A stretch of 38,113 bases of DNA, from NCBI GenBank assembly GCA_024696355.1, contig JAILGV010000186.1:1-38113 (forward strand), in the 5' to 3' direction. The notes under the pieces are model-generated. The model was given only the letters and a program-made list of their open reading frames with translations. It was not told where the DNA came from and made no database searches. The position numbers and the translations under genes are program-made. Positions 27,534 to 37,992 of this stretch are shown piece by piece. The number at the start of each line of letters is the position of its first letter. Positions within the stretch are counted from its first letter, which is position 1. This DNA is from Solobacterium sp. (GTDB taxonomy: Bacteria > Bacillota_I > Bacilli_A > Erysipelotrichales > Erysipelotrichaceae).

Positions 27534-28487
27534 ATGAAAAATCTGATATTAAGCGGAACTTACAACGATCACGGCAGTGAAGGAATTTATTCCTTTGAAC
27601 TCACAGACGGTATTCTGCAGAAGCCGCAGGTATTTTCAAAAATCAAAAGTGCAAAATATATTGCCGTAAACGGAAACCGTATTGCGTCCATCGGTGAATT
27701 CCCGAACGGATGCGGTGTGGCTCTGATTGATGAAAACGGAAATATTCTTGACACGATTGCATATGAGGAAAGAACCTCCTGCTATGTGGTTTTCCATGAT
27801 GACAAAATCTACACTGCCAATTATCATCTCGGTCAGTTCACGGTACTCAGGGCGGAAAAGGACAGGCTCAGACTGATCAATACGGTGATGATCAGGGAAA
27901 AGGCCGGATGCCATCAGGTGCTGTTCTCACAGGACAAAATCCTGATCCCGTGCCTGTTCCTGGACCGGGTCATGATTTACAGCAAAGACCTGGTATATCA
28001 GGGTGCGATCAGATTCCCTCAGGGCACAGGCCCGCGGCACGGCGTTTTTTCTGCCGACGGAACGGAACTGTATCTGGTATCGGAATTAAGCAATGAACTG
28101 TTTGTCTTTGATACCGCGGATTTTTCACTGAAGTACAGCATGCCGGTGCTTCCCGACGGTGAGACGCATGTACGTGACACGGCAGCCGTAAGGCTGAGCG
28201 ATGACGGAAAGCTCCTCTATGTTTCAACCCGCACCAAGGATGTCCTGTCGGTCATCGATCTTTCCGGACGGAAGCTTCTGCAGGCGCATTACTGCGGCGG
28301 AAGGCATCCGAGAGACTTTATCATTGTTCAGAATCATGCAGTTGTTGCCAACAGATTCAGTGACAATGTTGTTTCGTTCGAACTGAATGAAGACGGCACG
28401 CTGGGAAAACAGACAGGTACGATTATTGTGCCGCAGGCAGTTTCTCTGGCAGTGCTTGAAAAGGAGAGCACCCGTGAATCTGACTGA
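27534..28487 (+). CDS. Seven-bladed beta-propeller lactonase (6-phosphogluconolactonase-like)
   Basis: A 317-residue cytosolic beta-propeller of the YbhE/Pgl type. Visible pieces are LSGTYNDHGSEGIYSFEL at the start, TANYHLGQFTVL near 105, GTGPRHGVFSADGTELY near 163 and a GGRHPRDFII blade near 260. Family members hydrolyse 6-phosphogluconolactone in the pentose phosphate pathway, although several have other or unknown lactone substrates. AGGAGG precedes the ATG. It overlaps the nitroreductase gene by 14 nt. Confidence 0.88.
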   Translation: MKNLILSGTYNDHGSEGIYSFELTDGILQKPQVFSKIKSAKYIAVNGNRIASIGEFPNGCGVALIDENGNILDTIAYEERTSCYVVFHDDKIYTANYHLGQFTVLRAEKDRLRLINTVMIREKAGCHQVLFSQDKILIPCLFLDRVMIYSKDLVYQGAIRFPQGTGPRHGVFSADGTELYLVSELSNELFVFDTADFSLKYSMPVLPDGETHVRDTAAVRLSDDGKLLYVSTRTKDVLSVIDLSGRKLLQAHYCGGRHPRDFIIVQNHAVVANRFSDNVVSFELNEDGTLGKQTGTIIVPQAVSLAVLEKESTRESD

Positions 28488-29055
28488 ACTGTTTGAATAC
28501 AGAAGATCCTACCGGCGTTTCATAGAAGAAAAGCCGGTTGCGCCGGAATGCATCAGAGATATGAAAATGTCACTGCGGCTGGCTCCCTGTGCGGGAAACC
28601 TTCAGCCGCTCAGATATATTTTCGTATCGGACAGGAAGCTTCTTGAACAGCTCTGGCCGTGCCTGCACTGGGCAGCGTATCTGCCGCCTCAGCTGGGCAC
28701 TCCCGCAGAAGGGGAGCGTCCTCCTCTTGTGGTCATGGTGCTTTACGAAGAGGGAAAGGCAGGAAGGATGGTAAGTACGGATGCCGGCATTGCTTTGTGC
28801 AATATGACGCTTGCGGCAGCCGCCCACGGCGTCGGAAGCTGCATCCTGGGCAATATCGAACGTGACAGGATCAGGGCGGTTCTTGGACTGGATGAGCATA
28901 CGGTTCTGTTTGCGGCAGCGGCGCTTGGATATCCTGCGCACCGTTCAACCGTGACCGATATGAAGGAAGACGGAAGCGTGAAGTATTATCTGGACGAAAA
29001 CAGGGATTATTATGTTCCGAAAAGAAAAGAAGAGGATTTCATATCCGAAAGGTGA
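28474..29055 (+). CDS. Nitroreductase family flavoprotein
   Basis: A 193-residue FMN-dependent oxidoreductase. The N-terminus EYRRSYRRF is the usual phosphate-binding start of nitroreductases. APCAGNLQPLRYIFV (residue 34) and AAAHGVGSCILGNI (residue 121) are conserved blocks. Physiological substrates are unknown; family members reduce nitro compounds, quinones or enones with NAD(P)H. The start is GTG 28474 with AAGGAGAG 6 nt upstream. No terminator is seen until 29204, about 150 nt downstream. Confidence 0.9.
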   Translation: MNLTELFEYRRSYRRFIEEKPVAPECIRDMKMSLRLAPCAGNLQPLRYIFVSDRKLLEQLWPCLHWAAYLPPQLGTPAEGERPPLVVMVLYEEGKAGRMVSTDAGIALCNMTLAAAAHGVGSCILGNIERDRIRAVLGLDEHTVLFAAAALGYPAHRSTVTDMKEDGSVKYYLDENRDYYVPKRKEEDFISER

Positions 29056-29087: not shown

Positions 29088-29093
29088 TATAAT
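29088..29093 (+). promoter_or_regulatory. -10 box TATAAT of the nitrogenase-like operon
   Basis: A perfect TATAAT lies 147 nt before the nifH-like ATG. The -35 region is T-rich without a clear match. The expected transcription start near 29100 falls inside the 13-mer repeat at 29097-29109. Confidence 0.5.
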
Positions 29094-29096
29094 TGG

Positions 29097-29109
29097 TTTC
29101 GTAAATCAT
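29097..29109 (+). repeat. 13-bp repeat, left copy (operon flank)
   Basis: TTTCGTAAATCAT is identical to 37996-38008, just past the terminator of the same operon. The core CGTAAA also recurs 15 nt downstream at 29115-29120. It may be an operator shared by the operon and the RpiR-type gene, or a duplication left by insertion. Confidence 0.45.
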
Positions 29110-29239
29110 CCGACCGTAAAGATTCGTTCTGAGCGGGAAGTGTTCATGAAGTGCCGATCAGAATGGGAAGTCCAGACTGAAAGGAAACCAAATGACTGAC
29201 AACACTGCCGGATGACGGCAGTTTTTTTAGGAGAAATAT
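29100..29239 (+). promoter_or_regulatory. Leader with candidate attenuator or riboswitch before the nifH-like gene
   Basis: A leader of about 140 nt folds into TTCTGA-g-CGG (29127-29136) paired with CCG-a-TCAGAA (29154-29163), a small GGAAACC element (29183-29189), and a terminator (29204-29228) that touches the AGGAGA ribosome site. CGGgaAGTG (29134-29142) can instead pair with CACTgCCG (29203-29210), the left arm of the terminator, which would block it. Mutually exclusive folds of this kind are the hallmark of attenuation. No known riboswitch consensus was recognised. Confidence 0.45.
29204..29228 (+). terminator. Terminator hairpin abutting the nifH-like ribosome site
   Basis: ACTGCCG and CGGCAGT pair around GATGA, followed by seven T, and the ribosome site AGGAGA begins right after. 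It could end nitroreductase transcription, act as a regulated attenuator, or both. Confidence 0.8.
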
Positions 29240-29998
29240 ATGTATCGTTTTGCAGTATACGGAAAAGGCGGCATCGGAAAATCTACGACATGCACGGCAC
29301 TGTCCTGTGCTTTTGCAGAAATGGGCTACAGAGTCATGCAGATCGGATGTGATCCCAAGGCGGATTCCACGCTTTATCTGCATGAAGGGAAACGGATTCC
29401 GTCAATTCTTGAAACATTAAAAAAGAAAAGATCCACGGCTGAACTTGATGACCTGATTGTGACAGGATACCGCGGCATCGTCTGCGCGGAAAGCGGCGGC
29501 CCCACACCGGGACTGGGATGTGCGGGAAGAGGCATCGCGGCCGCTTTTGAAGCGCTGGAGGAGCGTGAGGCGTTTGAAATACTGAAACCGGATATCGTGA
29601 TCTACGACGTTCTCGGTGATGTTGTGTGCGGCGGTTTTGCCATGCCGATCAGGGAGGGATATGCCGATCAGGTTTATATTGTCACTTCCGGGGAAAATAT
29701 GGCGATTTATGCGGCAGCGAATATCGCGGTTGCAGTGGAAAACTTCAGGGAGAGGGGCTATGCATCTCTCGGCGGTGTGATCCTGAACCGCAGAAACGTA
29801 CCTGACGAAAGAAAGAAAGTTGAAGTGCTCTGCGAAGATATTCATACACAGATCGCTGCAGATCTGCCGAGAGACAATCATATAGCGGAGGCTGAAAGTC
29901 AGCTCCGTCCGGTCATGGAAATGTATCCGGACTGTGAATACGCAGTTCAGGTCAGAAAACTCGCGGAATATATGATTGAAAACGGGGTGAACCGATGA
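29240..29998 (+). CDS. NifH-like nitrogenase reductase-type ATPase
   Basis: A 252-residue homolog of nitrogenase iron protein and protochlorophyllide reductase L protein. The P-loop is G8-KGGIGKST16. The two cysteines that hold the inter-subunit [4Fe-4S] cluster are present: C94 in GLGCAGRG and C130 in [12 protein letters not shown]. The conserved Arg after the first Cys (R97) is also kept. It should hydrolyse ATP to deliver electrons to the partner complex encoded next. It is about 20-40 residues shorter than true NifH. It overlaps the next gene by 4 nt (ATGA). No nifE, nifN or nifB is nearby, so nitrogen fixation is unlikely. Confidence 0.92.
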
Positions 29999-31296
29999 AT
30001 ACGCCGTATCAGCTGATCAGGGATATGCCGTACAGATACAATGCGGATATCGGACTTGCTTATTCAAGTCCCTGCCGCGGCGTCTGGAACATCGTGCATT
30101 ACGGAACGCTCGTTCCTCAGGGACATCAGATTTTTGTATGTCCGACATCCTGCCTCAGGGGCGTCGTACTGACAACTGCGGAAATGGGCAGGGAGGCGAT
30201 GAAGAAGCTTTCCACGATTACCGTCGGGGAAGACAACATTCTGAACGGGGATATGGAGGAACAGCTCCTGCACGGTACGGAAAAGATTATCAATACGCTT
30301 CATGAAAGACCGCGCATGGTTATGATTTTCACCAGCTGCATCCATCATTTCATGGCTGTCAATTACCAGCGTGTCTACCGGATTCTGAGAAAGGAATACC
30401 CGGACATCGATTTTATTGACTGTTATATGGATCCGATTATGCGCCGTACCGCACCTCCGGATCCGAGCCTGCGCAGGCAGGTTCTCCGGGTGCTGAAGCC
30501 GGCTGAGCATGACAGTCACCGTGTTTCCTTTGTCGGAAACTGCTATCCCATGACGGAATACTGTGATCTCTATGTCCATCTGAAGCGGAACGGAATCGAA
30601 GTCAGTGATCTGACGACAATGAAGAAGTATGACGAGTTCAAGCTTATGGAGCAGTCCTGTCTGAACTTCACATTCAACAACGCAGCCGCCATGGCAGGAA
30701 GGGATCTCAGCATAAGACTGAAGCAGCCCGAAATGAAGATGCGGCCGACATATTTCTATGATGATATTGATGCAGATATGCAGAACGCTTCAGAGACACT
30801 GCAGATTCCCGATGTCTCTGATGAAGAAAAAGCCCGGCTGAGAAAAGAAACAGAGGAGGCGGCGCTGAGACTGAGGGAGAAACTGAACGGGGTTCCTGTT
30901 TCCGTTGATTACACCGCTGTTGTCAGACCGCTTGAATTTGCAGTGTATCTGCTTGAGCACGGCTTCAATGTCGAGTCGGTTCTGATTGATGTCATAACTG
31001 AATCCGAAGAGGTATTCAGAAAGCTTGTTGAAATCAAACCGGATCTCAAAGTATATTCATCGCTCGGATGGAATATGAGGACTGCCGACCGGACGCATGA
31101 GGGGAAGATCCTTGCCGTCGGACAGAAGAGTGCATATTTCAATAACACGAATTATTTTGTCAATGTAGTGGAAAATGCCGGCATGTACGGGTACAGAGGC
31201 ATACTGCATCTGCTCGGACTGATGGAAGAAGCGTTTGATTCGGAAAAGAACATGCCTGTCCTGATACAGGAAAAGGGATGGGGGTGCAGAGTATGA
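29995..31296 (+). CDS. Nitrogenase component 1-type oxidoreductase, NifD-like subunit
   Basis: A 433-residue member of the nitrogenase component 1 family. Candidate P-cluster-type ligands are C27 (SSPCRGV), C49 or C53 (VCPTSCLRG) and C115 (FTSCIHH), spaced like NifD C62, C88 and C154. C222 ([17 protein letters not shown]) falls where NifD C275 anchors the active-site cofactor. In the region matching the NifD H442 loop ([10 protein letters not shown] against GPYHGYDG) the His is replaced by Tyr. The active-site metal centre, if any, should therefore differ from FeMo-co. The protein ends in GWGCRV. It overlaps both neighbours by 4 nt. The alignment was done by eye. Confidence 0.88.
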
Positions 31297-32435
31297 GAGA
31301 CTGGCATACACATGTATATACATCCACCTATACGGCAGATGTCTCCGGTGTCTGCTCTGCCATGTATGAACTCGGCGGAATGACCGTGCTTCATGATCCT
31401 TCCGGCTGCAATTCGACTTATACGACACATGACGAACCGCGCTGGTATGATTCGAAATCACTGATGTTTGTCTCGGGCCTTGATGAACTCACGGCAGTCT
31501 ACGGTGATGATTCCGTCCTGATCAATGATGTGAAAAAGGCCGCAGAAGACCTGAAGCCGCGCTTCATCACCCTGTGCGGTGCATCGATTCCGCATATTAT
31601 TGCTTTTGATTACCGGGGAACGGCAAGGCTGATCGAAAAAGAAACAGGGATTCCCGTGCTTCCCGTGGCAACAGACGGACTGAAGTCCTATGTAAGCGGT
31701 GTGGATCTTGCCCTGCGTGAGTGGATCAGAAGATTTGCGGATGAAACGGAGGAACCGGTGAAGAACTGCATCAATCTTCTCGGTGTCACGCCGATTGATT
31801 TCTCCGGTCCGGCAAACGTAAAGGCAATGAAGAAAACATTTGAAGATCTCGGATTTACCGTAAACGGCTGCTTTGCCATGGAAGATTCCTTTGAGAATCT
31901 GACGCATGCATACCGTGCCTCGGTCAATGTCGCGGTTTCTTCGGCCGGACTCAAAACCGCACGCTATATGAAGGCAAGAAAGAACATCCCGTATGTCGTC
32001 GGACTTCCGGTCGGCAAATATATGGCAGGACGTATGGCGGATGCCATCCTGCAGGCACAGGAGGACGGCAGAAACAGGACAGCCTTTGATGAGCGCACGG
32101 AAGGAGATATTCTGGTAATCGGTGAAGAGGTTTATGCAAAGTCCATGGCCGAAGCCGTCAGCCGTACCGGATTCGCAGCCGGAAGAGGACTGGCTGCCGC
32201 GGCTTTATGGCCCGATACGGATGAAGGACTGGACGAGGACGATCTGTATGACAGGGTTAACCGGTCACAAATCGTCATCTGCGATCCGCTGTTCTTCAAT
32301 GTGTTCGCGGATGAAAAAACAAAAATGATTGAACTTCCTCATGAAGGATATTCGGGAAGAATCTTCAGAGACAGGATTCCCGTATTTGCCTCCGGGGAAT
32401 TTGATGCAGAAGCATTTATAGAAAGAGGAAAATGA
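31293..32435 (+). CDS. Nitrogenase component 1-type oxidoreductase, NifK-like subunit
   Basis: A 380-residue partner of the preceding subunit. C21 (SGVCSAMYEL), C39 (DPSGCNS) and C95 (TLCGAS) lie at spacings like NifK C70, C95 and C153, so a shared iron-sulfur cluster between the two subunits is likely. The rest has the repeated alpha/beta layout of component 1 proteins (INLLGVTPIDFSGPANVKAM near 160, VVGLPVGKYMAGRMADAI near 232). The ATG at 31293 forms the same ATGA overlap as the gene pair before it and has GGGGG upstream. An ATG at 31278 would add five residues. It is much shorter than NifK. Confidence 0.87.
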   Translation: MRDWHTHVYTSTYTADVSGVCSAMYELGGMTVLHDPSGCNSTYTTHDEPRWYDSKSLMFVSGLDELTAVYGDDSVLINDVKKAAEDLKPRFITLCGASIPHIIAFDYRGTARLIEKETGIPVLPVATDGLKSYVSGVDLALREWIRRFADETEEPVKNCINLLGVTPIDFSGPANVKAMKKTFEDLGFTVNGCFAMEDSFENLTHAYRASVNVAVSSAGLKTARYMKARKNIPYVVGLPVGKYMAGRMADAILQAQEDGRNRTAFDERTEGDILVIGEEVYAKSMAEAVSRTGFAAGRGLAAAALWPDTDEGLDEDDLYDRVNRSQIVICDPLFFNVFADEKTKMIELPHEGYSGRIFRDRIPVFASGEFDAEAFIERGK

Positions 32436-32436
32436 A

Positions 32437-33627
32437 ATGAACAGAACTTTTCGGAAATTCCTGGCTGCCGTGCTGTGTGCCGGCATGCTGGCAGGATGCG
32501 GATCATCCGCATCTTCCACAGGGGAAAAACCTGCGGAATCCGGTGCGGAGCAGACCGCGGAATCAGCGGCTGAAGAGACTGCCGGAGAAGCTGAGAAAGG
32601 TTTTGTGACAATTACGGACCACGCCGACCGTACCGTTGAAGTTCCGACGGATCCCGAAAAGGTTGCGGTTCTCGGAATTCTGCCGCTGCCTTCGGTACTG
32701 ACGGTGTACCTCAACAGTGCGGAGACAATCTGCGCCATGGAACCGGCAAGCATGAATGCCGCAAAGAACGGCATCCTGAGTCAGCTGTATCCGGAAATTC
32801 TCAATGTCAGCACTGACATTATGGACGGTGACGATGTAAATATCGAAGCACTTCTGGCTATGGAGCCGGACATCGTATTCTTCAATGCCGGCAACAAGGC
32901 CGAACTGGAAAAGCTGGAAAATGCCGGTATGACAGCTGTCGGCGTATCACCGACAAAGTGGTCCTATGACTGCATCCGCACATACAACGAATGGATTTCA
33001 CTGCTGAATCAGATCTATCCGTCCCGGGCAGCCGGAATCGAAAGAAGCGTTGATGATACTTCAAATAAGATCTATGAAGAGATTCAGGCAAAAACAGCGG
33101 ATATCCCGCAGGAGGAACGGCAGAAGGTTCTTTTCCTGTTCCAGTATGACGAAAATACGATGATTACATCCGGAAAGTCCTTCTTCGGTCAGTGGTGGTG
33201 TGACGCCGTCGGTGCGCTCAATGCCGCAAACGAAGTGGCCGCAGACAACTCCAACGCCAAGATCACGATGGAACAGGTATATGCCTGGAATCCCGATGTC
33301 ATTGTAATTACCAATTTTACGGGAACACAGCCGGAGGATCTTTACAATAACGCAGTCGGAAGCGACGACTGGAGTACGGTCAAAGCCGTTCAGGATCACA
33401 GAGTATACAAGATGCCGCTGGGCACATACAGAACATATACGCCGGGCGTCGATACACCGATGACGCTGAAATGGCTTGCCCAGGCTGTCTATCCTGATCT
33501 GTTTGAGGATTACGACATCATTTCCGATGTAAAGGAATACTACAATGCACTGTACGGGATTGCCCTGACGGATGAGCAGATTGAAAGCATGTACAATCCC
33601 AACCGCGCCGCCGGAAGCTGGCATTGA
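32437..33627 (+). CDS. ABC transporter substrate-binding lipoprotein (FecB/BtuF type)
   Basis: A 396-residue exported lipoprotein with lipobox LAGC (lipid-modified C21) and a low-complexity Ala/Glu/Ser linker to about residue 50. Its fold is the two-lobed type with a rigid helix that captures iron-siderophore, heme or cobalamin-like ligands (FVTITDHADRTVEVP, KVAVLGILPLPSVL, ALLAMEPDIVFFNAG, YAWNPDVIVITNF). The ligand is not evident from sequence. It starts 1 nt after the NifK-like gene, so it is co-transcribed with the reductase. It probably brings in a metal, cofactor or substrate for it. Confidence 0.92.
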   Translation: MNRTFRKFLAAVLCAGMLAGCGSSASSTGEKPAESGAEQTAESAAEETAGEAEKGFVTITDHADRTVEVPTDPEKVAVLGILPLPSVLTVYLNSAETICAMEPASMNAAKNGILSQLYPEILNVSTDIMDGDDVNIEALLAMEPDIVFFNAGNKAELEKLENAGMTAVGVSPTKWSYDCIRTYNEWISLLNQIYPSRAAGIERSVDDTSNKIYEEIQAKTADIPQEERQKVLFLFQYDENTMITSGKSFFGQWWCDAVGALNAANEVAADNSNAKITMEQVYAWNPDVIVITNFTGTQPEDLYNNAVGSDDWSTVKAVQDHRVYKMPLGTYRTYTPGVDTPMTLKWLAQAVYPDLFEDYDIISDVKEYYNALYGIALTDEQIESMYNPNRAAGSWH

Positions 33628-33642
33628 TGAACAGAGGTTGTT

Positions 33643-34653
33643 TTGAATACTGAAAGACGCTACAAAATATGGATGACCGTGACAGCCGTGCTGATTGTTT
33701 TCAGCGCGGCTGCTGCTTTGTGCATGGGTCAGTTCCGTATTCCGCTTGACAAGGTAATCGCCGAGCTCACCGGCAGGGGATCAGACATGGCCAATGCACA
33801 TACCGTGCTGTTTCAGATCCGGATTCCGAGGATTCTGCTTTCCATGCTGGCCGGAGCGGGACTTGCGGTATCGGGTGCTGCCTTCCAGAGTCTGTTCTCC
33901 AATCCGATGGCCACACCGGACACCCTGGGAACTGCAAACGGGGCAAGCTTCGGTGCGGCACTGGGCATTCTGCTCGGTTTCGGGGCGTTCAGAGTGCAGC
34001 TGACAGCGCTGGTTTTCGGAATTTCGGCAGTGATGCTGGTATTTGCCGTAACCAGGAGCGCTTCCGGTCAGTCGTCACCGTCGATGATTATGGTGATTCT
34101 CGGCGGCATGGTGATCAGCTCGCTGTTTTCGGCGCTGACCACACTGATCAAATTTGTGGCAGACCCGCAGGATGTTCTGCCGGTGATTACGTTCTGGCTG
34201 ATGGGAAGCTTTTCATCAACGACACAGAAGTCGTTCCTTTACGGATCACCGCTGATTATTGCCGGAACGGCAGTGATCTGCCTGCTGCGCTACCGTCTTA
34301 ACGCACTGTCTTTATCAGAGGATGAAGCCAGATCGCTCGGTGTGAACCTGCCTCTGGTCAGAGGACTGGTCATTGCGTCGGCATCGGCTGTCACTGCTTC
34401 GGTTGTGGCGATGTGCGGCGTGATCGGATGGGTGGGACTGCTGGTTCCCCATATTGCCCGGATGGTGCTGGGCAATGACAACAGCAGGGTCGTGCCTGCC
34501 TCGGTTACGTTCGGGGCTTTGTTCATGCTGGTTGTTGACACAATTGCTAGATGCGCCGCATCCTCGGAAATCCCTGTATCTGTTCTGACTGCCGTGATCG
34601 GAGCTCCGGTATTTATTCTTCTTCTGAGAAGATCGGGAGGTATCGGCAGATGA
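33643..34653 (+). CDS. FecCD/BtuC-type ABC importer permease
   Basis: A 336-residue polytopic permease with about nine to ten helices. It carries the family signature GAAFQSLFSNPMATPDTLG near residue 85 and the cytoplasmic coupling stretch SLSEDEARSLGVNLP near 222. It should form a dimer as the channel for the ligand bound by the upstream lipoprotein. The start is TTG 33643 with AGAGG upstream; the first downstream ATG (33670) would cut into the first helix. It overlaps the ATPase gene by 4 nt. Confidence 0.93.
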   Translation: MNTERRYKIWMTVTAVLIVFSAAAALCMGQFRIPLDKVIAELTGRGSDMANAHTVLFQIRIPRILLSMLAGAGLAVSGAAFQSLFSNPMATPDTLGTANGASFGAALGILLGFGAFRVQLTALVFGISAVMLVFAVTRSASGQSSPSMIMVILGGMVISSLFSALTTLIKFVADPQDVLPVITFWLMGSFSSTTQKSFLYGSPLIIAGTAVICLLRYRLNALSLSEDEARSLGVNLPLVRGLVIASASAVTASVVAMCGVIGWVGLLVPHIARMVLGNDNSRVVPASVTFGALFMLVVDTIARCAASSEIPVSVLTAVIGAPVFILLLRRSGGIGR

Positions 34654-35447
34654 AGTTCGAAGTGAAAAACGCCTCCTTTTCATTCGGGAGCGAACAGGTA
34701 TTCAGAAATGTCAGTATGACTGCGGAAAAGGGAAGAATTGTTTCCGTGCTGGGGCCCAACGGAGCCGGAAAGACCACGCTGCTGCGGTGCATGCTGGGCT
34801 TTCTGAAACCCGATCAGGGGGAAATCCTGATTGACGGAAAACCGAAGGCACAGATATCAAATACTGAATTCTGGAAAAAGACAGCCTATGTTCCGCAGGC
34901 AAGAATGCAGTCGTTTCCCTACAGTGTGGAGGAAACCGTCCTGATGGGCAGAAGCCCGTATCTTTCGATTTTCCGGATGCCTTCGGAGAATGACAGGAAG
35001 ATTGCCGAAAAGGCAATGGAAATGGCGGGAATCCTGCATCTGAGAAACAAGAACTGCGCCAGGATATCGGGAGGTGAGCTGCAGCTTACCCTGATCGCAA
35101 GAGCGCTTGCCCAGCAGCCGGAGATGCTTGTCATGGATGAGCCGGAAACCGGACTGGATTTCCGCAATCAGCTGATCGTAATCGGGCTGATCGAAAAGCT
35201 CTGCAGAGAGGACGGCCTGTCGATTATTTTTAATACCCATTATCCGGAACACGCATTCGGCATCAGTCATGATACACTGTTGCTGAAGGCAGACGGCACT
35301 GCACTGTTCGGAAATACCTCCGAAATCCTGACACCTGAAAACATGAGAGATGCGTTCGGTGTGGAAATCCGTATGGTTTCACAGACAGTGGACGGAAGGA
35401 ATGTATCATCAATCATACCGGTAGGGCTGGTACAGAAGGAGAACTGA
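34650..35447 (+). CDS. FecE/BtuD-type ABC importer ATPase
   Basis: A 265-residue ATPase with Walker A G35-PNGAGKTT43, an ABC signature that reads ISGGELQ (from I139, in place of LSGGQ) and Walker B LVMDEPETGLD (D163, E164). It powers the importer made with the two genes before it. The ATG at 34650 overlaps the permease stop (ATGA) and has GGGAGG upstream. The substitution of the usual Arg after the signature Gln/Glu by Leu-Thr is mild. It ends 1 nt before hydF. Confidence 0.93.
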   Translation: MKFEVKNASFSFGSEQVFRNVSMTAEKGRIVSVLGPNGAGKTTLLRCMLGFLKPDQGEILIDGKPKAQISNTEFWKKTAYVPQARMQSFPYSVEETVLMGRSPYLSIFRMPSENDRKIAEKAMEMAGILHLRNKNCARISGGELQLTLIARALAQQPEMLVMDEPETGLDFRNQLIVIGLIEKLCREDGLSIIFNTHYPEHAFGISHDTLLLKADGTALFGNTSEILTPENMRDAFGVEIRMVSQTVDGRNVSSIIPVGLVQKEN

Positions 35448-35448
35448 G

Positions 35449-36645
35449 ATGGAAACACCTTCATCAAACAGAATACATATTGGTTTTTTCGGGCGGATGA
35501 ATGCGGGGAAGTCTTCCCTGATCAACGCCTTTACCGGACAGCCTGTGTCGATCGTAAATGAAACTGCAGGCACAACGACCGATGTTGTCAGAAAACCCAT
35601 GGAAATACACGGAATCGGTGCCTGTACGCTGCTTGACACAGCCGGTTTTGATGATGCCGGGGAGCTCGGAAGACAGAGAACCGCGGCAGCCGAAAAAGCA
35701 GCCGCGGCCGCAGATCTTGCCGTGGTCCTGTTCGGAAACGATGATTATGAAGCCGAAAAGCAGTGGATCAGACAGTTCAGGGAACGCAGAACGCCGGTGA
35801 TCGGCGTATTCTCGCAGATGGATGTCCGCAGCCGTGAAAAAACATTTGAAGCAGCCGCGAAGCTGGAAGAGGAGCTGCATATTCCGGTATGCACCGTCAG
35901 CAGCAAAACAGGAGAAGGACTGGAAGAACTGCGCAGAACCATGGTTGAAGTCATGCAGGGGACAAAGCGCAGAAGCGTCACAGCCGGCCTGGTCAAAGAG
36001 GGGGACGTTGCCGTACTGGTCATGCCGCAGGACAAACAGGCGCCGGAGGGAAGACTGATCCTGCCGGAAGTTCAGACGATCAGAGATCTTCTGGATAAGG
36101 ACTGCATTGCGGTATGTACATCGGTTGAAAAGCTTCCTGCCGTCCTGGCGGGACTGAAGAAAGATCCGGATATTGTAATCACGGATTCCCAGGCGTTTAA
36201 GGAAGTGTATCCGCTTGTGCCGGAATCGGTGAAGCTGACGTCTTTCTCAATCCTTTTTGCTGGTCTGAAGGGGGATATACGCTATTATGCGGAAAGTGCG
36301 AAGGCAATTGCCCGGCTGAATGAGAATTCCCGCGTGCTGATCGCCGAATGCTGCACGCATGCACCGATGGAGGAAGATATCGGCAGGGTGAAGATCCCGC
36401 GTCTGCTGAGAAAAAAGGCAGGACAGAACCTGCAGGTGGATATTAAGGCGGGAGTTGATTTTCCGGAAGATGCTTCGGATTATGATCTGATCATCCAGTG
36501 CGGGGGATGTATGTTCAACCGCAAATATGTCATGTCAAGAATTGAAAGTGCGAAACAGGCCAATGTTCCCATGACCAACTACGGAATCGCAATTGCGTAT
36601 CTCAACGGCATTCTGGATCATGTGACACTGCCTGAGGAAGGATAA
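35449..36645 (+). CDS. hydF: [FeFe]-hydrogenase maturation GTPase HydF (variant)
   Basis: A 398-residue HydF, the GTPase and iron-sulfur scaffold on which the H-cluster diiron unit is assembled before transfer to HydA. Domains are a GTPase (P-loop GRMNAGKSS, ETAGTTTDVV, DTAGFDD), a dimerisation domain, and the C-terminal cluster domain with C302-T-H304 and Q350-C351-G-G-C354. The usual His before the CGGC pair is Gln here, and the GTPase G4 motif NKxD reads SQMD. Both changes may alter cluster ligation and nucleotide binding. It starts 1 nt after the ABC ATPase, with AAGGAG upstream, and is 4 nt ahead of the next gene. Confidence 0.93.
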   Translation: METPSSNRIHIGFFGRMNAGKSSLINAFTGQPVSIVNETAGTTTDVVRKPMEIHGIGACTLLDTAGFDDAGELGRQRTAAAEKAAAAADLAVVLFGNDDYEAEKQWIRQFRERRTPVIGVFSQMDVRSREKTFEAAAKLEEELHIPVCTVSSKTGEGLEELRRTMVEVMQGTKRRSVTAGLVKEGDVAVLVMPQDKQAPEGRLILPEVQTIRDLLDKDCIAVCTSVEKLPAVLAGLKKDPDIVITDSQAFKEVYPLVPESVKLTSFSILFAGLKGDIRYYAESAKAIARLNENSRVLIAECCTHAPMEEDIGRVKIPRLLRKKAGQNLQVDIKAGVDFPEDASDYDLIIQCGGCMFNRKYVMSRIESAKQANVPMTNYGIAIAYLNGILDHVTLPEEG

Positions 36646-36649
36646 AAAT

Positions 36650-36898
36650 ATGGAAGAGACAAGAATCGCAGTCATTGCCGTTATTGTGGAAGACGGCACC
36701 AAGGTATCAATGATGAACGAAATACTGCACGAATATGCGGACAGTATCATCGGCAGGATGGGCATTCCCTACCGTGCAAAAAATCTCAGCCTGATCTCTG
36801 TGGCTGTCGATGCGCCTCTGGATACGATCAATGCTCTGACCGGAAAGCTCGGAAAGATTGAAGGCATTTCCGTCAAGACAGCATTATCCAAAGCGTAA
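36650..36898 (+). CDS. TM1266-family small protein (iron-only hydrogenase system putative regulator)
   Basis: An 82-residue protein of alternating strands and helices (ACT-like, as in NikR C-termini): RIAVIAVIVEDGTKVSMMNEI, then IIGRMGIPYRAKNLSLISVAV and INALTGKLGKIEGISVK. It matches the small protein commonly encoded with hydE, hydF and hydG. Its role, probably ligand sensing, is not established. It is placed between hydF and hydE with gaps of 4 and 1 nt. Confidence 0.9.
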   Translation: MEETRIAVIAVIVEDGTKVSMMNEILHEYADSIIGRMGIPYRAKNLSLISVAVDAPLDTINALTGKLGKIEGISVKTALSKA

Positions 36899-36899
36899 T

Positions 36900-37958
36900 A
36901 TGAACAGAGTAACAGAACTGATTGATGAGCTGTTTGAAAAGAAGAATCTTTCAAAGGAAGACTTCATATTTCTGATCAATCACAGAAGTGAGGAAGCGGC
37001 ACAGTATCTTTTTGAAAAGGCAGGTATCCGAAGAAGGGAAAACTTCGGGAACGGGATTTACATCAGAGGAATTGTCGAGTTTTCCTCATACTGCAGGTGT
37101 GACTGTTTTTACTGCGGTCTGCGCAGGTCAAATCAGCATTGTGAAAGATACCGTCTGAGCAGGGAGGATATACTGCAGTGCTGCCGGAGCGGTTATGAAT
37201 ACGGCTTCCGTACATTTGTTCTGCAGTCAGGGGAAGATCTGACCTACAGTGATGACGATATCTGTGACATAGTAAGACAGATCAAACAGGAAATGCCTGA
37301 CTGTGCCGTCACTCTGTCCATCGGTGAAAAGAGCTTCGAAAGCTATCAGAAGTACTATGATGCCGGTGCAGACAGATATCTTCTGCGCCATGAAACAGCC
37401 TCCCCGGAGCTTTACAAACGGCTGCATCCGTCCGGACAGACGCTTGAAAACAGAATCCGCTGCCTTTATGACCTGAAGAAGATCGGCTATCAGGTCGGTG
37501 CGGGAATGATGATTCAGGCGCCTTATCAGACCGCCGAAGATCTTGCTGAAGATTTTGTGTTTCTGAAACAGCTCGAACCGGATATGATCGGTGTCGGTCC
37601 GTTTATTCCCCACAGGGATACCCCGTTCAGGGACTTCAGTGCCGGAAGCCTGGAGCTTACCCTGTTTGTCCTGGGGATTCTGCGCTGCATGTTCCCGAAG
37701 GTTTTGCTTCCGAGCACAACCGCACTGGGGACAATTGATCCTGCGGGAAGGGAAAAAGGAGTTCTAGCCGGCGGAAATGTTATTATGCCCAATCTTTCGC
37801 CGCAGCGGGTCAGGGGAAAGTATCTCCTGTACAACAACAAGCTCACAAGCAGTGATGACGCAAGGGGAAGCGTGGAAAATCTGAGAAACAGGATGGAGAC
37901 AATCGGGTGTGAAGTGGTGATTTCAAGAGGCGACGCACCCGGAAAAGGTCCGCATTGA
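36900..37958 (+). CDS. hydE: [FeFe]-hydrogenase maturation radical SAM enzyme HydE
   Basis: A 352-residue radical S-adenosylmethionine barrel enzyme. The cluster motif is C65-x3-C69-x2-C72 within SSYCRCDCFYCGLRRSN; the CGLRR tail distinguishes HydE from BioB and PylB. HydE works on the cysteine-bound iron complex supplied by HydG during H-cluster synthesis. The optional second cluster of some HydEs would need several C-terminal cysteines, and only one is present. The ATG at 36900 follows the previous stop by 1 nt. No hydG is found on either side within the window. A terminator follows. Confidence 0.93.
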   Translation: MNRVTELIDELFEKKNLSKEDFIFLINHRSEEAAQYLFEKAGIRRRENFGNGIYIRGIVEFSSYCRCDCFYCGLRRSNQHCERYRLSREDILQCCRSGYEYGFRTFVLQSGEDLTYSDDDICDIVRQIKQEMPDCAVTLSIGEKSFESYQKYYDAGADRYLLRHETASPELYKRLHPSGQTLENRIRCLYDLKKIGYQVGAGMMIQAPYQTAEDLAEDFVFLKQLEPDMIGVGPFIPHRDTPFRDFSAGSLELTLFVLGILRCMFPKVLLPSTTALGTIDPAGREKGVLAGGNVIMPNLSPQRVRGKYLLYNNKLTSSDDARGSVENLRNRMETIGCEVVISRGDAPGKGPH

Positions 37959-37970
37959 CAACAGGGATGG

Positions 37971-37992
37971 GAAAGCGGCTGTGCCGCTTTTC
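37971..37992 (+). terminator. Rho-independent terminator after hydE
   Basis: AAAGCGGC and GCCGCTTT form an 8-bp stem with a TGT loop and a short T tail (TTCTGTTTT), closing the nine-gene operon. Confidence 0.8.

Follow-up and report, generated by a model that had tools for sequence, protein, structure and literature searches.

The window analysed here is one whole contig (C150; 38,113 nt) of a Solobacterium sp. assembly (2.63 Mb, 83% complete), and it carries at 29240-37958 an operon joining nitrogenase-like genes to maturation genes of [FeFe]-hydrogenase. Nine open reading frames (ORFs) on the plus strand form a single co-directional run, nifH-nifD-nifK-SBP-permease-ATPase-hydF-TM1266-hydE (SBP, substrate-binding protein), in which neighbouring genes overlap by 4 nt or are separated by at most 15 nt. 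An earlier note, made from the letters alone, had described this layout and a terminator closing it; the ORFs and family profiles bore out the former, and a hairpin with a T-rich tail the latter. The features of the operon are:

29240-29998, plus strand: nifH-like ATP-dependent reductase (Nif1 H), from profile searches; cluster cysteines C94 and C130 conserved
29995-31296, plus strand: nifD-like subunit (Nif1 D), which defines the clade; 4-nt overlap with nifH; C49/C53/C115 conserved
31293-32435, plus strand: nifK-like subunit (Nif1 K); best start ATG 31293, 4-nt overlap with nifD
32437-33627, plus strand: lipoprotein SBP with a FecB/BtuF-like fold, from profile searches and fold comparison
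33643-34653, plus strand: FecCD/BtuC-type permease; TTG start, 15-nt gap after the SBP gene
34650-35447, plus strand: FecE/BtuD-type ATPase; ATG 34650, 4-nt overlap with the permease gene
35449-36645, plus strand: hydF, H-cluster scaffold GTPase; TIGR03918, 512 bits (cut-off 326)
36650-36898, plus strand: TM1266-family putative regulator of the [FeFe]-hydrogenase system; TIGR03959, 112 bits (cut-off 60.8)
36900-37958, plus strand: hydE, radical SAM H-cluster maturase; best start ATG 36900; TIGR03956, 530 bits (cut-off 254.6)
37972-37990, plus strand: terminator-like hairpin with a T-rich tail after hydE, read directly; the hairpin scan did not list it

The NifH, NifD and NifK proteins belong to the nitrogenase superfamily. 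Pfam models matched above cut-off (Fer4_NifH, PF00142, 296 bits for NifH; Oxidored_nitro, PF00148, 39.7 bits for NifD and 99.6 bits for NifK), as did FecCD, Peripla_BP_2 and ABC_tran for the importer genes. An AlphaFold model of NifD (predicted local distance difference test, pLDDT, 89) showed the nitrogenase component-1 fold in Foldseek, with VFe, NifEN and MoFe proteins matching at E about 1e-15 and Mar (9fmg, 9d9u) and BchNB also among the matches. Conserved cysteines were found in all three proteins (in addition to those listed above, C44 and mostly also C26 of NifK), which makes binding of metal clusters by Nif1 HDK plausible.

The curated cut-offs rule out that these proteins are members of the nitrogenase, Cfb or Bch families. 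NifH scored 311.8 bits against a nifH equivalog cut-off of 394, and no NCBIfam family matched NifD in the profile search. CfbC gave 303 bits (cut-off 402) and the CfbD profile 22 bits against NifK (cut-off 268). The Bch scores were 191 bits for BchL (cut-off 345), 173 for BchX (331), 21.5 for BchN (420) and 54 for BchB (490), the last being the top equivalog match of NifK. On a tree built without a Mar reference sequence, Nif1 D was separate from NifD, NifE, NifK and NifN. Thus, the window proteins share with NifHDK and NifEN the fold and, in NifH, the cluster cysteines, but differ from them in score, in the missing family of NifD and in position on the tree. BchLNB, BchXYZ and CfbCD provide a precedent for superfamily members active in cofactor biosynthesis; their cut-offs are far above the scores of the window proteins, however, and their context is tetrapyrrole synthesis rather than hydrogenase maturation. 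Mar and the Nfl isethionate system are likewise NifHDK-like two-component reductases of anaerobes, but they are sulfur-salvage enzymes for which the literature searched reports no link to HydE, HydF or HypFCDE. The novelty that the earlier note had seen in NifHDK was upheld in that the proteins lie outside all named equivalog families tested, and the system is probably novel.

In the HydEFG pathway, HydE joins two Fe(CO)2CN-cysteine units and HydF delivers the product. To our knowledge, reviews hold that all five diatomic ligands of the H-cluster must come from HydG. This enzyme, a tyrosine lyase, uses tyrosine to generate CO and CN-, supplied in the form of an Fe(CO)2CN-cysteine unit (PMC9431212). 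HydE, HydF and the TM1266 protein of the window are canonical and exceed their NCBIfam cut-offs, and the genome encodes HydA substrates for them: [FeFe]-hydrogenases of group A6 (855 bits; cut-off 765) and B1 (526 bits; cut-off 450). The hydE gene of the operon is the only HydE copy that a profile search found in this genome. The same type of search did not find HydG in the 83% complete assembly; the top match, at 62 bits, was HydE itself. HydE and HydF therefore have enzymes to serve, without their usual feeding partner, and a nitrogenase-like complex stands in the place of HydG.

This pattern recurred in other genomes. Among 316 genomes sampled from the order, the NifD clade (relatives of the window NifD at E < 1e-60) was present in 19, HydG in 19 and HydE in 38. 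The genomes with HydE comprised 19 with the NifD clade, 18 with HydG and one with a partial HydE; all 19 clade genomes encoded HydE and none encoded HydG (Fisher 1.1e-9). In an independent draw of 283 Clostridia genomes, the 13 with the clade all had HydE and all lacked HydG. Here the clade was found in 13 of the 17 genomes with HydE and no HydG versus 0 of the 177 with both proteins; leaving out the genome chosen as centre gave 12/16 versus 0/177 (Fisher 4.6e-16). The species-level genome collection contains at least 573 loci encoding a relative of the window NifD, and HydG was lacking in 48 of 50 tested genomes that were found through NifD alone. In these comparisons each species is represented by one assembly, and many assemblies are incomplete.

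Because the p-values ignore relatedness, we built a tree of 90 HydE sequences. The Nif or HydG label requires 11 changes on this tree, at least eight of which are forced by supported branches. HydE of Nif genomes interleaved with HydE of HydG genomes, and a single genus holds both states (G206, Nif; G207, HydG). The two systems have thus been swapped repeatedly while HydE stayed, which is the signature of functional equivalence. The anti-correlation with HydG and the repeated switching make replacement of HydG by the Nif1 NifHDK clade very probable on comparative grounds.

The earlier note had taken the opposite direction, namely that the metal centre or partner of the reductase depends on HydE and HydF. 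The A6 and B1 hydrogenases, the single HydE, the HydG that was not found and the replacement of HydG by the clade across genomes speak against this, and things probably run the other way, with the reductase feeding HydE and HydF. The note's explanation, in which NifHDK reduces an external substrate brought in by the importer and has its own metal centre or partner matured by HydE and HydF, would account for the operon linkage, and a substrate-reducing function is made plausible by a sister clade in which NifHDK-importer units have no hyd genes (see below). We nevertheless regard it as unlikely, because the window HydE must serve the canonical HydA proteins of the genome and because such a reductase would explain neither why these genomes have lost HydG nor why the importer is exchanged for HypFCDE and a second NifHDK.

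The linkage to hydE and hydF, which the earlier note would have put down to accident if homologous operons lacked these genes and relatives kept them elsewhere with hydA, proved to be conserved. In 54 of the 80 related loci, at least one homolog of hydE, hydF or TM1266 lay no more than 10 kb from NifD; 126 of the 127 such genes near NifD were co-directional with nifD, in many different gene orders. The neighbourhoods, the shuffling of gene order and the co-occurrence rule out a chance association.

Two builds of the system could be distinguished. In Clostridium acetogens, hypF, hypC, hypD and hypE lie between two nifHDK sets. The full super-operon reads nifHDK2-hypFCDE-(TM1266)-(nifH)nifDK1-hydF-hydE, with some changes of order (e.g. 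L215, L209, L210, L217 and L224). The nifHDK2-hypFCDE-nifHDK1 block is present in C. ljungdahlii, C. ragsdalei and C. carboxidivorans, and the order hypF-hypC-hypD-hypE agrees with the published locus tags. The nickel genes hypA and hypB were not seen inside the Nif2-hypFCDE blocks. In these blocks all complete HypE copies have a C-terminal PRIC and HypD carries the CGTH motif, as in the HypCDEF cyanide pathway of [NiFe]-hydrogenase, in which cyanide from carbamoyl phosphate is placed on an iron scaffold. This sister build differs from the [NiFe] set in the lack of hypA and hypB within the blocks, in its position between nitrogenase-like genes and hydF/hydE, and in its HypD: on a tree, the Nif2-linked proteins form one clade (support 100/100) apart from 10 other HypD proteins, some of them from the same genomes. 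Two hypD copies, one of the Nif2 clade and one of the ordinary type, occur in C. carboxidivorans (G339) and in G316, G318 and G306.

The window-type build contains no HypCDEF set and has the importer instead. We searched HypD in 80 genomes and inspected the surroundings of the matches. All 28 Nif1 genomes whose Nif1 locus lacks an importer had the Nif2-hypFCDE block, whether next to Nif1 or at another site, and none of the 23 importer-type genomes, among them the 11 of the window's genus, had it; importer and block are thus mutually exclusive (Fisher 6.8e-14). Four importer-type genomes encode HypD, in each case of the ordinary type and without Nif2. Agrilactobacillus has neither importer nor block, and HypD was found in 2 of 23 HydG control genomes. 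It follows from the exclusivity that Nif1 is the constant part and that the importer occupies the place of Nif2 and Hyp.

Taken together, these observations make it likely that the operon is a HydG-free [FeFe]-hydrogenase maturation system in which Nif1 HDK takes the role of HydG and makes an iron precursor bearing CO and CN-. The output of Nif1 HDK would be an Fe(CO)2CN-type synthon equivalent to that of HydG, from which HydE and HydF would form the H-cluster's [2Fe] subsite. We know of no kind of system that employs a nitrogenase-like complex as a hydrogenase maturase. We therefore consider the system categorically new, although each part comes from a known superfamily and HydE and HydF are ordinary.

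How the ligands arise may differ between the builds. Nitrogenase-type enzymes are known to reduce CO2 to CO and also to reduce cyanate and thiocyanate. In [NiFe] maturation, cyanide is derived from carbamoyl phosphate via HypF and HypE, with HypCD as the iron scaffold, and the anaerobic source of CO has been described as unresolved and possibly requiring a further enzyme (PMC12130793). Iron-bound CO2 has been proposed as the precursor of CO on HypCD, by a step resembling a CO2 reductase (PMC4161419). In the Hyp build, cyanide would accordingly pass from carbamoyl phosphate via HypF and HypE onto HypCD-bound iron, together with the second complex, Nif2. The simplest route to the CO ligand would start from CO2, or a related C1 compound, and reduce it at the expense of ATP to iron-bound CO. 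Nif2 would be the natural candidate for this step, because it accompanies hypFCDE in all the blocks of this kind that we saw. The confidence we place in this chemistry, cyanide via Hyp and CO by C1 reduction, is neither above nor below even. That it amounts to a second, evolutionarily independent route to CO and CN- of the H-cluster, by nitrogenase-like C1 reduction and a repurposed HypFCDE cyanide line, is a tentative proposal with slightly less than even prospects.

In the importer build of the window, the importer would stand in for the Nif2-Hyp block and import an iron complex or a cyanide source; that it brings in such an equivalent is a guess. The fold neighbours of the SBP in Foldseek were 4ovk (28% identity; ligand not known) and MolA (21%), followed by siderophore and heme binders, and binding proteins of class III with this fold are carriers of metal chelates.

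Several observations weigh against a HydG-free maturation system of this kind. HydG and the Nif1 clade occur together in C. drakei (G353) and Agrilactobacillus yilanensis (G363), which may be natural cases of redundancy or of an ongoing switch. HydE occurs without HydG and without Nif1 in four Clostridia genomes (G422, G505, G550 and G607), either because the assemblies are incomplete or because there is a third solution. The window's own genome is 83% complete, and [FeFe]-hydrogenase genes were profile-checked in this genome and, through the literature, in acetogens. HypCD makes Fe(CN)2CO and the unit of the H-cluster is Fe(CO)2CN, so the stoichiometry needs explaining. Finally, the sister clade has nifHDK-SBP-permease-ATPase without hyd genes (L251, Treponema saccharophilum plasmid pTS1, 9001-15297; L252-L255), and it occurs in the Clostridia genomes G428, G482, G490 and G496, three of which encode HydG. 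The importer-NifHDK pair is therefore not tied to hydrogenase as such, which weakens the importer as a hydrogenase-specific feature; originally, the pair may have served a different purpose.

The difference in ligand source and machinery, together with the normal product of HypCD, Fe(CN)2CO (PMC12130793), could also mean that the system builds a chemically different H-cluster, with other ligands or another stoichiometry. This has a small probability in our view: the HydA proteins of the window genome exceed the A6 and B1 cut-offs, and HydE and HydF are canonical, with HydE intermingling on the tree with the HydE of genomes that have HydG. An unlinked ThiH-like or divergent radical SAM enzyme replacing HydG, with NifHDK merely co-regulated (e.g. 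to use or dispose of low-potential electrons), is very improbable. In its favour, 10 of the 50 genomes encode ThiH-like proteins that score 170-217 bits with the HydG profile, and atypical HydG candidates have been proposed in acetogens (PMC9431212), but most Nif1 genomes lack such proteins (other matches, at about 46-76 bits, are HydE-sized frames), the profile search found none in the window's genome, and the switch follows NifD1 almost exactly.

If Nif1 HDK does act in the place of HydG, it would explain how [FeFe]-hydrogenases are matured without HydG in industrial acetogens such as C. ljungdahlii and in many rumen and gut bacteria. A 2022 paper could locate no HydG in five of eight Clostridium acetogens, among them C. 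ljungdahlii, C. ragsdalei and C. carboxidivorans, and had no explanation for this; hypCDEF without hypAB was present in C. ljungdahlii, C. ragsdalei and three others, and C. carboxidivorans had two hypCDE sets (PMC9431212). Each of these acetogens has one [NiFe]-hydrogenase (PMC9431212), and the Hyp set of C. ljungdahlii may therefore serve both the [NiFe]- and the [FeFe]-hydrogenase. Maturation of the two enzyme types would then be linked through HypFCDE, the nitrogenase superfamily would gain the role of a hydrogenase maturase, and there would be a candidate for where the CO of [NiFe] maturation comes from under anaerobic conditions. Gut species of the importer type would obtain by salvage what other cells have made, either an organometallic precursor of iron or a cyanide source. 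A genetically tractable organism is available for testing the model, and hydrogenase biotechnology could use the genes as a maturation toolkit. We found no report of a link between NifHDK and hydrogenase maturation in the open-licence literature, to which our coverage, exclusive of subscription papers, extended.

Upstream of nifH lie the putative control elements of the operon:

29088-29093, plus strand: TATAAT, likely -10 of the operon promoter, read directly; a TATAAT-like sequence aligned in relatives
29109-29141, plus strand: conserved leader element whose hairpin covaries, a candidate cis-regulatory RNA, from covariance analysis and a covariance model
29204-29222, plus strand: terminator-like hairpin followed by T7, attenuator candidate, directly before the nifH ribosome-binding site

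The leader element (33 nt) begins 15 nt past the TATAAT. In its alignment 95.5% of cells were paired and three pairs had changes on both sides; the covariation exceeded that of all 500 shuffles and of every slid control, from 16 related rows, which is few. It matched no Rfam family, known riboswitches included. The hairpin at 29204-29222 had been missed in the earlier note. In most close relatives a similar terminator-like hairpin precedes nifH by 41-50 nt, and from the position of the window's hairpin directly before the ribosome-binding site expression of the operon is probably attenuated.

The covariance model also matched upstream of hydE (L101), TM1266 (L134) and nifH1 of a distant clade member (L226), and upstream of nifH2 in six Hyp-type genomes (L211, L212, L220, L223, L224 and L232; E 0.005-0.04 each). 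The six nifH2 matches are all at the same place, each followed by a terminator hairpin. This common leader element suggests that the importer and Hyp builds may answer to one signal. Matches at the start of the SBP gene in Mogibacterium-type loci (L109, L113, L115, L116, L118, L120, L121, L127-L129 and L136) were discarded as coding sequence: that in L118 consists of the start codon and signal-peptide codons of the SBP, and the others are at the equal position. A nitroreductase-family gene (28387-29055) is located directly upstream, with the promoter and leader of the operon in between.

Loci L256 and L257, from genomes of the window's genus without HydE, contain another NifHDK clade, distinct from Nif1 and Nif2 in the tree and without importer or hyd genes. 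Two Fe_hyd_lg_C proteins (L038, G000:C106:9837-10493, and L039, G000:C71:2730-2996) scored far below the A and B1 cut-offs and possibly represent sensory or other [FeFe]-hydrogenase groups. Two TM1266-family genes are present per locus in L101, L108, L110, L125 and others; the second is 34-45% identical to that of the window and could be a paired regulator.

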